A stretch of DNA of 64,000 nucleotides, taken from an uncultured Pirellulaceae bacterium (lineage in GTDB: Bacteria; Planctomycetota; Planctomycetia; Pirellulales; Pirellulaceae). The notes beneath the pieces were generated by a model. That model was not told the DNA's origin, did no database searches, and was given only the letters and a program-made list of their open reading frames with translations. The stretch covers positions 62,001 through 126,000 of the forward strand of contig CALKGE010000001.1 in assembly GCA_938084685.1 (NCBI GenBank), written 5' to 3'. The translations under genes and the position numbers were made by a program. Numbering within the stretch: position 1 is the first letter of the stretch; each line of letters opens with the position of its first letter. Below, one piece after another: positions 28,383 through 35,778 of this stretch.

Positions 28383-29615
28383 ATGAGCGATCCATACTTC
28401 CAACCGTTATTTGCTGACAGAATCGGTGGCGAAAACTACGGTAAAGGAACCGAAATCTATAAATTTGAGAAAATCAAGCGTGCGAAACGAAAAGCACTGG
28501 CTGATTTCCCAGACCGACTCCTGCTGGATTTCGGCATCGGTGAAAATGATGCTCCTGCAGACGAAGCTGTACGTGAAGTCATGGCTCGGGAGATTCATCT
28601 GCAGGAAAACCGGGGTTATGCAGATAACGGCATCGCAGAATTCAAAGAAGCGGTTGCTCGTTTTATGCAACGGAATTTCAATGTGGAGCTGGATGCCAAC
28701 ACAGAAGTAAATCACTGCATTGGTTCCAAAACCGCTCTTTCGATGATCCCAGCCTGCTTCATCAACCCGGGCGATATCACTCTCATGACCGTTCCTGGTT
28801 ATCCGGTTGCAGGTACGCATACAAAATATTACGGAGGGATTGTCCACGAACTACCTCTGCTGGCGGAAAACAACTTTCTGCCAGATCTTGATTCAATTCC
28901 TCAGGACGTTTTAGAGCGGGCCAAGCTGCTGGTAATCAACTACCCGAATAGCCCCACTGGAAAACTGGCTCCTGCTGAATTCTTTGAAAAGGTTGTGCAG
29001 TTCGCCAAGGACAACAACATTGTCGTCGTACAGGATGCGGCTCATATCCTGCTTACCTTCGACGGCCGGCCTACCAGCTTTCTGGAAACTCCCGGAGCTC
29101 GTGATGTCGGAGTTGAAATCCACTCGCTTTCCAAAGGCTTTGACATGATTGGTTGGAGAATTGGATGGGTTTGTGGCAATCCACTTCTGGTGCAGGCATT
29201 TTCGGATGTCAAGGACAACTGTGACAGTGGACAGTTCATTGCTATCCAGAAAGCGGCCGCGGCGGCTCTGGATAACGATTCCATCCCTCAACGTATCCGT
29301 ACAAAGTATCAACGCCGGATGACATCCCTGGTGGAGACTCTGCAGGGCTGCGGCTTCCAGTGCGAAATGCCTGGCGGCTCGTATTTCCTCTACACGCCAG
29401 CCCCAACAGGCGTAGAGGGTGGCCCGACGTTCGCCAATGCAGAAGAAGCCAGCCAGTACCTGATCACCGAACATGGTATTGTGACCGTACCGTGGGACAA
29501 CGCCGGAGCTTTCCTGCGATTCTCGGTTACCTATGTCGCTGACGATCAGCAACGGGAAGAGGAACTGATGCAGGAAACCGTTGCTCGTCTCGGTAATGTA
29601 CCCTTCACCTTTTAG
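28383..29615 (+). CDS. dapL: LL-diaminopimelate aminotransferase
   Basis: LDFGIGENDAPADEAV...NRGYADNGIAEFKEA...NYPNSPTGKLAPAEFFEKVV...SLSKGFDMIGWRIGWVCGN. Confidence 0.93.
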   Translation: MSDPYFQPLFADRIGGENYGKGTEIYKFEKIKRAKRKALADFPDRLLLDFGIGENDAPADEAVREVMAREIHLQENRGYADNGIAEFKEAVARFMQRNFNVELDANTEVNHCIGSKTALSMIPACFINPGDITLMTVPGYPVAGTHTKYYGGIVHELPLLAENNFLPDLDSIPQDVLERAKLLVINYPNSPTGKLAPAEFFEKVVQFAKDNNIVVVQDAAHILLTFDGRPTSFLETPGARDVGVEIHSLSKGFDMIGWRIGWVCGNPLLVQAFSDVKDNCDSGQFIAIQKAAAAALDNDSIPQRIRTKYQRRMTSLVETLQGCGFQCEMPGGSYFLYTPAPTGVEGGPTFANAEEASQYLITEHGIVTVPWDNAGAFLRFSVTYVADDQQREEELMQETVARLGNVPFTF

Positions 29616-30388
29616 GCAGACTGAGCGGTATACCGCTTTTGCTCGGTATTACCCAGGTACTTTTCCTTCACGGCCTGATCGTTGAATGCTTCTTCGCTGG
29701 TGCCGTCAAACAGGAACTCGCCACGATCAATGACGTAAACACGATCAACGATTTCCAGGATCTCGAGTGCTGCATGATCCGTGATGAAGAACGAAATTCC
29801 TTCGGACTTACGTAATTCAGAAATCGTGGTCTGAATTCCATCAATTGTCTTTGGATCAATCCCTGCAAAGGGTTCGTCCAGCATGATGATTTCGGGTTCC
29901 AGAATCAGACAACGAGCAATTTCCAGCCGCCGACGCTCTCCACCGGAAACGCGCCCCGCCTTGGTCTTACGGATTTCAGTAAGATTAAAACGTTTCAGCA
30001 ATTCGTTGCATCGATCTCGCTTCTCTTTACCTCGGAAACCCTGAAGCTCGATCATCAGGTTCAAATTCTGCTCGACCGACAACTTGGCAAAGACGCTCGA
30101 ATCCTGAGGCAGGTAGCCCATTTGGCCTTCACGAGCACGGCGATACATTGGCCAATTTGTTACATCCTGACCCTGCAAAATGACGGAACCTTCGTCAGGA
30201 CGTTCCATCCCGCATGTCATTTTAAATGTTGTAGTTTTCCCGGCGCCATTGGGGCCAAGTAACCCCACAATTTCACCTGCTTCCACTGAAAAGCTGACGC
30301 CATTTACGACCCGTTTACGGCCATAGGTCTTCACTAACTTATTGACTTCCAGAATTGGCATTCTGTCGCTACTCGCACTAAAACGCAA
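29612..30388 (-). CDS. lptB: LPS export ABC transporter ATP-binding protein
   Basis: VVNGVSFSVEAGEIVGLLGPNGAGKTTTFKMTCGM, YLPQDSSVFAKLSVEQNL, RVSGGERRRLEIARCLILEPEIIMLDEPFAGIDP. Confidence 0.93.
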   Translation of the reverse strand: MRFSASSDRMPILEVNKLVKTYGRKRVVNGVSFSVEAGEIVGLLGPNGAGKTTTFKMTCGMERPDEGSVILQGQDVTNWPMYRRAREGQMGYLPQDSSVFAKLSVEQNLNLMIELQGFRGKEKRDRCNELLKRFNLTEIRKTKAGRVSGGERRRLEIARCLILEPEIIMLDEPFAGIDPKTIDGIQTTISELRKSEGISFFITDHAALEILEIVDRVYVIDRGEFLFDGTSEEAFNDQAVKEKYLGNTEQKRYTAQSA

Positions 30389-30407: not shown

Positions 30408-32513
30408 TTACTGTATTACACCGATGCGTGAAAAGTTCGGTATGATTGGTAAGTCGAGTAGGGGGTCCCCATAGGGATGAGGCCAGTAGATCAGCAGCGC
30501 CTCTCCAATAAACAGCTTACGATTAAACGTATGTTTCCCCAGATAGTCTTTCCAGGTCGTGCTCCGCGCATCCGCACTCGCCGGACTGTTATCACCCATC
30601 GGGAAGAACTCGTCCTGCATCACATTAAAAACAAGCTGTTCCCGATTCTGAAAGAACTCGGAATCATTCCAGGCCGGAAACAGGTCGAGATGCAGCTTGA
30701 TAACATTTTGCCGAGTGGCTGTCTGCCGGTTAGGCGATAACCAGAGCGGGTCAATACGTTGCAGATCCTTCCGGTAAGCATCTATCAAGCCAAGTGTAGT
30801 TTGTGATGTCGGGTGGATGTCCTCGTTGTATTCATAGCCCACCATGGCGCTGTGATGAGATGCGATGTAGTAGACGTCCCGATACACTCGAGCATCTTCA
30901 AGGGTAACAGCAAGTCCTGTGGAATGCAGGCCTGCAGGAAACAAATCCCCCGGATCGTCAACTGACCATTTTGGCCCCAGAATTCTTTCGGTGACAAAAG
31001 TAGCCGGATGATTCAATGTGATGAGTTCATCATCCACCCAGACACGCAACTCGTTGTCAAAATTGCTGTAGCGAATCGTGTGAGTTCCTTTGCCGCGAAT
31101 CACCGTTTGACCTTCCAGCGTGGGACCTTCGTATCCCGTGCCACCATCAGCATCGGTCGACACAAAGAACTTTTCACCACCGTCTATCGACAGCGTAAGT
31201 TTTCCCGTTGCTACGTCTATTTCACCCTCGTAATAGACACCAGATTCAACAATATCAAAACCCAACTTGCCAGTGTCACTCTCAATTACAACGTCAAATT
31301 CGACCGCTAGATCACCTACCCAGTACTGGCCACGCGATGACCCGGACGGCCAGCGGGACCGCAGCATCTGGGATACTCCGCTGACGACAATATTCGGTGC
31401 AAGCTGCTCGTTCTGCAGTATGTCACGAAACTTGGCAATATAGTCCTGACCATCCTCGATCACCATGCCATGGCCGGACAGATCAGATTCCGAGCCTTCA
31501 GTAACGTCGTCACCAACAGGACTTGCAAATACCGTTCCGGCACTGGATTCAAAAGCTGAACGGGTGATGGTTGTGTTGTACGCATAAACGTCCGTAATCA
31601 ACTTGGGGCGTGGCCAGAAGATCGTACTTAATTGCTCCCGGTACTGAGCTGCTTCAGCTGTACGACCCTCTGCCTCGGCTTGATTGATACTGCCAAGTAC
31701 CTGGTTGTAAATCACCCAAAAATTCTGATCCGGAATATTGTGGTGATAACGAATACTAACTTTATCCGCATTGGTTCCGTCAATCGAGTAGTTGAACCCT
31801 TCGTTGGTTGGCTTCCAATTTCCGGGCGTCCCCTCTACTTTCGGCGGACGATAGTCATTTAGATAATCACCCACCATTCGCCAGGGTTGAGGCCACATCA
31901 GGCGATCCAGGCTTGCCGGTCGATACTGCGTATCGTGAACCAACTGCATCATTGCCAGCTGCTTGTGTTCCGGTTTACGGCGAATCTCAAATACCGCATT
32001 CGTATTTGTCAGAGGCCTGGTATGAATGTCACCGTTGGACACCAATACTTTTTCATTAGGCAATCCAACCAGTCTCTTGATGTAATTCTCTGTTGGATCG
32101 ATCGGGTTTTTAAAGACAATGACATCCCATCGCTTGGGATCATTGAACATGTAGGCGAATTTATTAACAAGAATACGGTCACCTGAAAACGAATTCTTGG
32201 AAAGGTCTTTTTCTTTGTCCAGAACTTCGGTGAAGCCACACATCGGACAGACCGTCGCAATCACCTCATCTACTTTGTCATTTTCTTCACTCGCACCAGC
32301 TCGATACTGATAATCGCAAACATGACATCGATGTTCAATATGCGTTCCCTGAAGACCATGTGCCATGGAACCAGTGGGAATAATGTACGCTTCAACAACA
32401 AAGCCGCGAAAGATGAAGGCGAGAATAATGGCGATTGCAAAACCTTCCAGCATATCGCGAATGTACATGACGAAACCGTCACGAATCTCATCGAATTCAG
32501 AATTGCTGCTCAT
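30408..32513 (-). CDS. lepB: Signal peptidase I with large insertions (~701 aa)
   Basis: YIIPTGSMAHGLQG (catalytic Ser), RILVNKF, NYIKRLVGLPNE (catalytic Lys), FPMGDNSPASADAR (box E). CxxC...CxxC insertion (CHVCDYQYR..CPMCGF) and ~370-aa insertion. ORF-track start 32534 extended; MSSNSEF at 32513 preferred. Confidence 0.9.
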   Translation of the reverse strand: MSSNSEFDEIRDGFVMYIRDMLEGFAIAIILAFIFRGFVVEAYIIPTGSMAHGLQGTHIEHRCHVCDYQYRAGASEENDKVDEVIATVCPMCGFTEVLDKEKDLSKNSFSGDRILVNKFAYMFNDPKRWDVIVFKNPIDPTENYIKRLVGLPNEKVLVSNGDIHTRPLTNTNAVFEIRRKPEHKQLAMMQLVHDTQYRPASLDRLMWPQPWRMVGDYLNDYRPPKVEGTPGNWKPTNEGFNYSIDGTNADKVSIRYHHNIPDQNFWVIYNQVLGSINQAEAEGRTAEAAQYREQLSTIFWPRPKLITDVYAYNTTITRSAFESSAGTVFASPVGDDVTEGSESDLSGHGMVIEDGQDYIAKFRDILQNEQLAPNIVVSGVSQMLRSRWPSGSSRGQYWVGDLAVEFDVVIESDTGKLGFDIVESGVYYEGEIDVATGKLTLSIDGGEKFFVSTDADGGTGYEGPTLEGQTVIRGKGTHTIRYSNFDNELRVWVDDELITLNHPATFVTERILGPKWSVDDPGDLFPAGLHSTGLAVTLEDARVYRDVYYIASHHSAMVGYEYNEDIHPTSQTTLGLIDAYRKDLQRIDPLWLSPNRQTATRQNVIKLHLDLFPAWNDSEFFQNREQLVFNVMQDEFFPMGDNSPASADARSTTWKDYLGKHTFNRKLFIGEALLIYWPHPYGDPLLDLPIIPNFSRIGVIQ

Positions 32514-32533
32514 AACTACCGTAAATAATCCCA

Positions 32534-32574
32534 CTCGGCTATTTCAGCCGCACCCTCGGCTATTTCAGCCGCAC
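32534..32574. repeat. Two tandem 20-nt copies of a mini-hairpin (21-bp period)
   Basis: ctCGGCTatttcAGCCGcac at 32534-32553 and 32555-32574; each copy is a 5-bp stem with 5-nt loop, in the intergenic spacer before lepB. Confidence 0.85.
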
Positions 32575-32671
32575 CAGAGAAACTGGACGACTAACTATCA
32601 ATCCCTAACAGTATACCTGAGAACTTGCAGAGGACGGAACCGGGGATGATTTGCCCTTGCCTGGAAAAACC

Positions 32672-33970
32672 TCAGTCAACGCCCACACCCAGCATAGCCT
32701 CACGACCAATTCCAACTCCCCATTGCCGGCAATCCCGTGAAACTGGCTGATTGTCACCAATCAGTAAATAGTCCTTATCACCTGATCCTCCTCGAAATTC
32801 CCAGCGATCTGCCGAATAGTCTGCTCCCAGCCAGAAAACGTCACGAGCCAGCCGTACCCGGTTGAGGTCAAGTATTCCCTCATCCACCGCTACCGATAGG
32901 GGCATCTTGCGTACCAATTCGTCGGCACCAAAATTCCCTGTCAGTCCCAGACTCTCAATCGGCACTGCCCATTGATCACTGCCCAGCTCGACGACAAACT
33001 GACTATCAATCCGACCCACTCGTAGTTTCATTTCGCTTCCCAGTTTATGCCATTTCAAAGGAGTAAATGAGGTCGAATGCCGAACGAAGTGCGATTGAAA
33101 AACCTGAAGAGTGAATTGGTGACAATCCAGTTCCAATTCCACATCCAGCAATCGGATGCGAATAACTCCTGGCTCGTAGATTCTGAAATCCAAGTCAACC
33201 ACAAAGTCATCCACAAAGTTTAATTGAGATCGTGCGATGTACTGGTTATAGGGGAGGTAATCAAAGATCGCTGCGTCGGTCCCACGTTCCACTCGGGGAA
33301 CATAGCCGGCAACAACGTTCCAGTGATGAAAGTCCAGCCACTGAGGGCGAGTTTTTTGGGGGGCGTCAAAAGCAAAAACCTTTTCCGTTGTAAAGATCCA
33401 CCCTTGATCATCACCTCGTACCCCGAAACGCCGCAGTAAATTAAAGGAGGAATCCAGCGGTTGATAGCGGCTATCAAACAGTACCGTACTCAATAAATCA
33501 AATTCCGCCAGACTCTTTTGATACAACTGCCCGTCAACAAAGAGCTCACCTTGCTCCATCGCAATCTTTTCACCCGGTAGACCTACCACACGTTTGATGT
33601 ACTGCTGACCATCATACTCGAACACAACGCGTTGCCACCGCGTTAAGATCTCCTCGTCAATTACCTGAAACGTTGTCTGAGGCAGACGGGTGACCAGATC
33701 ATCGATCGAATTAGGTGCACCGCAATTGAAGCAGATTGGCAGATTTGACTCACTCACCGTGTCCGCATCCACCAGGAATGGTATCTGGCAGTCATAACAT
33801 TCAATGGCAAAGTGAGGTCCGGGAACTGCGTTGGCCATGCTGCTGGAAACGACAGGTGCATGAAATAATCGATTTCCGGTGTACTGACCCAACCACCATC
33901 CAATACAGGCTCCGGCCAATAAGATACCTGACGCAACGAGGTAGACGAACGGCCGGTTCTGATGGGACAT
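32672..33970 (-). CDS. Second, divergent signal peptidase I-like protein
   Basis: APVVSSSMANAVPG, FEYDGQQYIKRVVGLPGEKI, LLIGDNQPVSRDCRQWG match S26 boxes B/D/E; same CxxC..CxxC insertion (CYDCQIPF...CFNCGA). Confidence 0.8.
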   Translation of the reverse strand: MSHQNRPFVYLVASGILLAGACIGWWLGQYTGNRLFHAPVVSSSMANAVPGPHFAIECYDCQIPFLVDADTVSESNLPICFNCGAPNSIDDLVTRLPQTTFQVIDEEILTRWQRVVFEYDGQQYIKRVVGLPGEKIAMEQGELFVDGQLYQKSLAEFDLLSTVLFDSRYQPLDSSFNLLRRFGVRGDDQGWIFTTEKVFAFDAPQKTRPQWLDFHHWNVVAGYVPRVERGTDAAIFDYLPYNQYIARSQLNFVDDFVVDLDFRIYEPGVIRIRLLDVELELDCHQFTLQVFQSHFVRHSTSFTPLKWHKLGSEMKLRVGRIDSQFVVELGSDQWAVPIESLGLTGNFGADELVRKMPLSVAVDEGILDLNRVRLARDVFWLGADYSADRWEFRGGSGDKDYLLIGDNQPVSRDCRQWGVGIGREAMLGVGVD

Positions 33971-33975
33971 GCCAG

Positions 33976-35778
33976 TTATTTCTTCTCCTGGCCTTTATCC
34001 AGCACCGCCATGAATGCTTTTTGAGGAATATCTACACTGCCGATACTCTTCATCCGCTTTTTACCTTCTCTCTGCTTCGCCCAAAGTTTTTTCTTACGGG
34101 AAATGTCCCCGCCATAACACTTGGCCGTAACATTCTTACGTAATGCTCGAACGGTCTCCCGAGCAATAATCTTGGAACCAATCGCTGCCTGAACTGCTAC
34201 TTCAAACATATGCCGATCGATTTCTTCTTTCAGCTTCTTGCATACTGCACGACCTCGAACCTGTGCATCAGCACGGTGACATATCACACTCAGAGCATCC
34301 ACCCGGTTACCATTGACCAGAATATCCATGCGGACCAGATCGGCTGCCTGGTATCCAATAATCTCGTAATCCATGGTTCCATAGCCGCGTGTTGAGCTCT
34401 TCAGCTTATCATGCAGATCATAAATCACCTCTGCAAGCGGCAGGTCGTAGGTGAGCATCATGCGTGTCGTAGAAATATACTCCTGAGACTGCTGCACTCC
34501 TCGTCGCTCATTACACAATTTCATGATGGCCCCGACATACTCGCCAGGAGTGATGAAGTTTACTCGTACGATTGGCTGACGAAACTCTAGAATGTCACCC
34601 GATTCAGGGACTTCCTGGGGACGATGAATCCGAAGTTCGGTACCATCTTTTTTCGTCACCTCATAGGTCACGTTCGGTGCCGTCTGAATCAGATCCACAT
34701 CAGATTCCTGTTCCAGTCGCTGCTGGACGATTTCCATGTGTAACAGCCCCAGGAAACCACAGCGAAATCCGAAACCTAGCGCTTCACTCGTCTCAGCTTC
34801 AAATTCAAAACTCGGGTCGTTAATTCTTAATCGCCCCAATGCATCACGCAGTTCCTTAAAGTCCTGGCCGTCTGATGGATAGAGTCCACAGTACACCATC
34901 CTTTTAGGTTCCTGGTAGCCAGGCAACGGTTCCACTATTGAGTTGCTCAGACAAAGCGTATCTCCGATGTGGACCATATCGAGTGATTTGATATTGCAAA
35001 TCACATACCCCACCTGTCCGGCCTGTAACTGATCACAGGGAGTTTGCTGAGGCGTAAACTGACCGATTTCAATGACGTCGTGTGTAGAACCCGCTCGAAT
35101 GAACTTGATCTTATCCCCTTTGCGAATCGTACCTTCCATCACGCGGATATAAGTAATCGCTCCTCGGAATTCGTCATAATGCGAATCAAAAACCATGGCT
35201 GCCAATTCAGCCTGAGGATCACCGGTTGGAGGAGGAACGTGTTCAATGATGGCATCGAGCAACTGCTCGATGCCAATCCCCTCTTTGGCACTGACCTTCT
35301 GAACTTCTGCTTCTCCCAGACCAAACTGCTGTTCGATCTCTTCCACAACCTCATCTACTCGAGCATAATCCAGATCGATTTTATTGATGACAGGAATGAT
35401 CGCCAGATTATGGTCAAATGCGTTGTAACCATTGGCAACCGTCTGTGCTTCCACGCCCTGGAACGCATCGACCAGTAGTAAAGCACCTTCACAGCATGTT
35501 AAGGCGCGGGAGACTTCGTACTGAAAATCGACATGCCCTGGTGTATCAATCAGATTCAATTGGTACGTTTCATTGCCACGTTTGTACTCGACGCTGACGC
35601 TCCGCGCCTTGATCGTAATTCCACGGTCACGCTCCAGCTGCATATCGTCCAGCATCTGCTCCTTCATCTCACGTTCAGAAACTGTACCGGTATACTCCAG
35701 CAAGCGATCTGCAAGGGTGCTTTTCCCATGGTCGATGTGAGCAATAATGCTAAAGTTTCTTATCTTGCGGCAATCCAT
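33976..35778 (-). CDS. lepA: Elongation factor 4
   Basis: IAHIDHGKSTLADRLLEYTGT, ERDRGITIKA, DTPGHVDF, and the LepA C-terminus (GYGTMDYEIIGYQAADLVRMDILVNG...KRMKSIGSVDIPQKAFMAVL). Confidence 0.98.
   Translation of the reverse strand: MDCRKIRNFSIIAHIDHGKSTLADRLLEYTGTVSEREMKEQMLDDMQLERDRGITIKARSVSVEYKRGNETYQLNLIDTPGHVDFQYEVSRALTCCEGALLLVDAFQGVEAQTVANGYNAFDHNLAIIPVINKIDLDYARVDEVVEEIEQQFGLGEAEVQKVSAKEGIGIEQLLDAIIEHVPPPTGDPQAELAAMVFDSHYDEFRGAITYIRVMEGTIRKGDKIKFIRAGSTHDVIEIGQFTPQQTPCDQLQAGQVGYVICNIKSLDMVHIGDTLCLSNSIVEPLPGYQEPKRMVYCGLYPSDGQDFKELRDALGRLRINDPSFEFEAETSEALGFGFRCGFLGLLHMEIVQQRLEQESDVDLIQTAPNVTYEVTKKDGTELRIHRPQEVPESGDILEFRQPIVRVNFITPGEYVGAIMKLCNERRGVQQSQEYISTTRMMLTYDLPLAEVIYDLHDKLKSSTRGYGTMDYEIIGYQAADLVRMDILVNGNRVDALSVICHRADAQVRGRAVCKKLKEEIDRHMFEVAVQAAIGSKIIARETVRALRKNVTAKCYGGDISRKKKLWAKQREGKKRMKSIGSVDIPQKAFMAVLDKGQEKK

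Follow-up and report, generated by a model that had tools for sequence, protein, structure and literature searches.

A tandem pair of enlarged type I signal peptidases with a zinc ribbon-like module and a predicted concanavalin-like insert in a Pirellulaceae bacterium

Results

The window analysed, a 64,000-nucleotide stretch from an uncultured Pirellulaceae bacterium, carries on its minus strand a gene cluster in the order lepA-lepS-lepL-lptB, the features of which are collected in Table 1. The LepL and LepS open reading frames were both found with the same boundaries as in the first-pass annotation, and relatives of LepL differ at the start, so that the ATG seven codons downstream may be its true initiation codon. 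The lepA-lepB type of adjacency pointed out in that annotation holds, and its order is kept in relatives; the clusters of many relatives, in several families and also in other classes, again have lepA on the upstream side and the LptB-like ATPase on the downstream side. An aminotransferase is encoded on the plus strand of the window at 28383-29615 (NF004937, LL-diaminopimelate aminotransferase, 662 bits against a cut-off of 585).

Table 1. Genes and predicted features of the lepS-lepL locus (positions in the window)
Feature	Position	Strand	Description and evidence
lepA (elongation factor 4, EF4)	33976..35778	minus	TIGR01393 914 bits; 5 bases upstream of lepS
LepS	32672..33970	minus	432-aa second signal peptidase; PF10502 E 8e-13
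LepS catalytic Ser44 (VSSSM)	33839..33841	minus	invariant
LepS zinc-ribbon-like module C58xxC...C80xxC	33722..33799	minus	first Cys at Ser+14; invariant
LepS catalytic Lys126 (YIKRVVGLPGE)	33593..33595	minus	motif, invariant in relatives
LepS concanavalin-like insert, approximately residues 250-378	32837..33223	minus	predicted; AlphaFold core and Foldseek
LepS box E (GDNQPVSRDCR)	32726..32758	minus	motif; GDN at residue 405
LepL	30408..32534	minus	708-aa type I signal peptidase; passes TIGR02227; PF10502 E 5e-25
LepL catalytic Ser56 (box B, PTGSM)	32367..32369	minus	motif, invariant in alignment
LepL zinc-ribbon-like module C70xxC...C96xxC	32238..32327	minus	four invariant Cys; zinc-ribbon family resemblance
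LepL catalytic Lys153 (box D, YIKRLVGLP)	32076..32078	minus	motif, invariant in relatives
LepL concanavalin-like insert (WVGDLAVEFD ... RDVYYIA)	30864..31325	minus	predicted; profile homology to LepS insert
LepL box E (GDNSPASADAR)	30564..30596	minus	motif; GDN at residue 647
lptB-like LPS-export ABC ATPase	29612..30388	minus	TIGR04406 288 bits (cut-off 240); 19 bases downstream of lepL

LepL scores 88.7 bits and LepS 49.1 bits against Pfam PF10502 (cut-off 22.9). Against NCBIfam TIGR02227, with an equivalog cut-off of 47, LepL passes at 81.2 bits and LepS, at 46.5 bits, falls half a bit under. Each has an N-terminal hydrophobic segment, at about residues 28-52 in LepL and 6-29 in LepS. The distance from the catalytic lysine to box E is 494 residues in LepL and 279 in LepS, and the catalytic serine of LepL precedes the GDRILV strand by 62 residues. 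Orthologues in genus relatives are 69-71% identical for LepL and 57-60% for LepS. LepS-type proteins throughout the order retain the catalytic serine and lysine; a pseudoenzyme reading of LepS was rejected, as the paralogues flagged as motif-less keep both residues when their sequences are read directly. The S26 layout proposed for the tandem paralogues is thus borne out by PF10502, the motifs, the Ser/Lys dyads and box E: LepL and LepS are, by sequence, type I signal peptidases (S26) with intact dyads and predicted cleavage activity.

The source genome (3.43 Mb in 14 contigs, 89.75% complete) was searched for further signal peptidases; at this completeness, neither a third S26 signal peptidase beyond LepL and LepS nor an archaeal-type enzyme was matched, and it is possible that a third enzyme is missing from the assembly. 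A search with PF00717 returned one ORF of 206 aa, which, judged by size, is probably LexA-like. As LepL and LepS are the sole S26 signal peptidases found in the genome, the housekeeping role probably belongs to LepL.

Both proteins carry a four-cysteine module between the catalytic serine and the lysine (C70xxC73 and C96xxC99 in LepL, C58xxC61 and C80xxC83 in LepS), and all four cysteines are identical in three genus-level relatives of each protein. In LepL, as in LepS, the first cysteine lies at Ser+14. A set of 135 S26-like ORFs, drawn from about 90 loci, shows the same position wherever the serine is unambiguous, the serine having been chosen without any spacing preference. For proteins with a Ser-Lys spacing of at least 70 residues, all four cysteines are present in 96 of 108, none in 7 and part of them in 5, a count for which the script preferred Ser+14 when choosing among candidate serines. 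These counts take in related genomes and a few near-copies, and so refer to proteins and not to independent events. The paired CxxC motifs had been noted before with a gap of about 20-30 residues; the pairs are real, and the gap is 18-22 residues.

Two CxxC/CPxCG knuckles with four conserved cysteines, the pattern by which a zinc ribbon is recognised, were found in the module. The LepL module scores under the cut-off in every zinc-ribbon family model, and other members of the family give best E values of 3e-6 to 6e-4 against the Zn_ribbon_3/4 and MJ0042 models. The cysteine module of the first-pass annotation therefore stands, and it looks like a zinc ribbon of the MJ0042/Zn_ribbon_4 kind, which fits its sequence better than the zinc knuckle then proposed; metal binding is predicted from this resemblance. 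Mostly the cysteines are either all present or all absent, a pattern expected of a shared metal site. In two families (L084, L085, L087, L088) the length of the loop is kept and all cysteines are lost, suggesting that the loop can do without metal. Placement of the ribbon at the beta-ribbon extension of E. coli LepB was ruled out, since the sequences put it earlier, between box B and the GD(F/R)ILV strand.

Variants of the module were also observed. In G135, a distant planctomycete, the signal peptidase at L097:4833-6350 (minus strand) has six CxxC motifs, probably amounting to three zinc ribbons, of which one lies between boxes C and D. Two S26 paralogues of 340 aa with several hydrophobic segments near the N terminus (L111:964-1995 and L116:1471-2493) likewise have a CxxC that starts at Ser+14, and show a degenerate second half.

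The segment between boxes D and E was examined by structure prediction and profile comparison, the AlphaFold alignments consisting of the window protein and three genus-level relatives. The LepS model has an overall pLDDT of 44 and a poorly modelled catalytic part; the core of its insert (residues 261-340) reaches about 80-93 per 10-residue block, an additional folded domain predicted with confidence as a beta-sandwich. In Foldseek the LepS insert hit CBM66, galectins and Gas6 LamG domains with probability 1.00 and E values of about 1e-4; target TM-scores were about 0.5-0.6 where the target was a single domain. The LepS insert is therefore confidently predicted to be a concanavalin-like beta-sandwich. 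The LepL model, from four sequences, has a pLDDT of 30, too low to be informative. Profile comparison makes the LepL insert homologous to that of LepS (99.7%, E 2.6e-25) and the inserts of both homologous to those from other classes (99.5-99.8%), and through this homology LepL is predicted to share the concanavalin-like fold. The concanavalin/LamG-like insert that had been suggested for both proteins is accordingly upheld, by modelling for LepS and by profile homology for LepL.

Run against PDB sequences, a profile of the other-class inserts hit galectins (E 3e-4) and SHBG LamG domains (E 0.016-0.03), and the PDB profile search with LepL-type inserts gave nothing useful. In Pfam, the LepL and LepS inserts have no match and no lectin or LamG-type model reaches its cut-off, the best LamG-type score being that of Laminin_G_3 in other family members (E 0.021). 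Identity of the inserts across classes is low, and some of their residues are near-invariant, including the RD(V/I)YY end. Signal peptidases of other phyla recovered in a plasmid search match at or near the catalytic core and not in the concanavalin-like insert.

The phyletic survey overturned the view that the enlargement is special to this pair. LepL matches were obtained in 137 of 147 Planctomycetota genomes, most matched frames exceeding 430 aa, and the segment from lysine to box E is enlarged (235-496 residues) in every one of the 61 S26 proteins measured, which come from some 40 clusters in Planctomycetota. The double CxxC occurs in 39 of these 61, and some lineages that lack the ribbon have a Ser-Lys spacing of about 47. 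S26 proteins are present in each of 60 relatives, which belong for the most part to the same family and order; the usual set is a longer protein of about 600-720 aa and a shorter one of about 430-550 aa, and some relatives carry a normal-sized S26 protein additionally. In the seven other members of the genus lepS and lepL are adjacent, with order and sizes alike. Judging from these sequences, an enlarged signal peptidase I is the norm across Planctomycetota.

A tree of 88 proteins, built by a quick method and having long LepS branches such that deep forks inside LepS are not trusted, places LepL in a class-wide clade with 100% SH-aLRT support, and all LepS lie across a 100% branch. This split puts the duplication before the sampled class, and LepS and LepL are, on the phylogeny, ancient class-wide paralogues. 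The tandem pairs of four other family groups (f65, f25, f8, f19) cluster inside their own lineages, which suggests that tandem duplication has recurred at least four further times.

Short proteins were seen in the lepS slot of two genomes, each alongside a larger LepL. That of G193 (L113:1420-2130, minus strand, 236 aa) keeps the cysteine module and has lost the sandwich, and that of G203 (L115:1465-1956, plus strand, 163 aa) has lost both modules. These variants show that the partner can lose both modules next to a LepL that remains oversized. In an extra S26 paralogue of G107 (L103:4402-6009, plus strand), serine replaces the box D lysine (YVSRLIGMPGE), and the protein is possibly inactive.

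Discussion

The reading that we favour, and hold to be fairly likely, is that LepL is the housekeeping signal peptidase I and LepS a faster-evolving, active second enzyme, which probably acts on narrower or different preproteins. The intact dyad of LepS together with its faster change within the genus, evident from the lower identity of its orthologues, suggests that it is probably a specialist enzyme. The proposal of different substrates made in the first-pass annotation is favoured by the class-wide conservation of the dyads and the faster evolution of LepS; the substrate split itself we infer.

Each protein would be a single-spanning membrane protein with its catalytic domain facing the periplasm, and would cleave signal peptides by the usual Ser/Lys mechanism, with no new chemistry. 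As the ribbon follows the nucleophile so closely in the chain, it should flank the substrate groove; its loop, between the serine box and the next conserved strand, would then lie beside that groove and near the membrane. The beta-sandwich would fill the D-E slot, and both modules may serve as a docking or substrate-shaping surface.

Other explanations of the modules were weighed. The four cysteines might form disulfides in an oxidising periplasm, without metal, as would suit a catalytic domain that S26 topology leads one to expect there and a loop whose length survives the loss of every cysteine in the two families mentioned; the spacing and the CPxCG pattern, however, fit zinc ribbons, including the MJ0042-type and Zn_ribbon_4 models, and cysteine loss mostly takes all four together, which makes disulfides rather unlikely. 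For the insert, a genuine lectin role, in which binding to glycans of the envelope localises the enzyme, is suggested by its nearest folds (CBM66, galectins and LamG domains) and by the conserved neighbour lptB, an LPS-export gene. This fold, however, serves many non-sugar roles, no lectin family exceeds its Pfam cut-off and no sugar-site residue was found, so a lectin is considered unlikely. Still less probable is a reading of the inserts as near-neutral baggage of the lineage that hardly affects function. The natural deletions in the lepS slots of G193 and G203 and the low cross-class identity speak for it; against it, the genomes sampled from the order have an oversized LepL-type frame, and the insert can be detected phylum-wide, with near-invariant residues such as its RD(V/I)YY end.

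As regards the pair itself, an obligate heteromer, in which one subunit assists the other in a two-gene signal peptidase complex, would agree with an adjacency kept in the genus and in a large part of the family, with the repeated rise of tandem duplicates at the locus elsewhere, in other lineages, and with the Bacteroides finegoldii pair, where an apparently active 494-aa enzyme is joined to a Gly/Ser-substituted partner. The full dyad in both LepS and LepL speaks against it, as does the finding that lepS and lepL lie far apart in several genomes (e.g. G145, G158, G170), and an obligate heteromer is judged improbable. A more speculative proposal, to which we give little credence, is that of a fused equivalent of the signal peptidase complex, in which ribbon and sandwich would replace accessory subunits in docking and substrate selection, and LepS and LepL would sort two cargo classes. 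The division into a housekeeping LepL and a specialist LepS is retained as the preferred reading.

Signal peptidase I is essential, an antibiotic target and usually seen as a minimal catalytic core, and the planctomycete cell plan is unusual, unusually compartmented and much debated. An entire phylum appears to use this enzyme in a form expanded by two folded modules, of which one is placed 14 residues from the nucleophile. Should substrate choice be steered by them, the modules would give a way into protein sorting in planctomycetes and into what the domain II slot of S26 enzymes can do. The text examined from a survey of Kuenenia gives a single signal peptidase I and does not remark on its domains (PMC2881027). 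The architecture occurs phylum-wide, and in the open-access literature searched, which mostly excludes subscription journals, signal peptidase I was nowhere found described with these modules; the phylum-wide enlarged form may be undescribed in print, for which such absence is weak evidence.

The fold of the LepS insert is, by prediction and with profile similarity, like that of LamG, galectin and CBM66 domains, whereas the sandwich of LepL and LepS sits inside a protease and no family model scores over its cut-off.

Among signal peptidases, E. coli LepB has in common with LepL and LepS boxes B-E, the Ser/Lys dyad and the lepA-lepB order. It is, however, a protein of 324 aa without the four-cysteine module, in which the serine is followed by the GDFILV strand after 8 residues as against 62 in LepL, and the lysine by box E after 127 residues as against the 279 and 494 of LepS and LepL. 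The non-catalytic domain II of E. coli LepB sits between boxes D and E, the slot predicted here to hold the beta-sandwich. Chlamydia LepB is about 630 aa long.

A tandem S26 pair on a plasmid of Bacteroides finegoldii (L159:163-2631, NZ_OY725906.1) resembles LepS/LepL in that the genes are adjacent and one product is oversized (494 aa). It differs in that the CxxC module is absent after the serine position and the partner, a 313-aa protein annotated as lepB with Gly/Ser in place of the catalytic Ser/Lys, looks like a pseudoenzyme from its sequence. The other S26 proteins of Planctomycetota have the D-E segment enlarged as in LepL and LepS, and differ from them in that the ribbon is missing or devoid of cysteines in some lineages.
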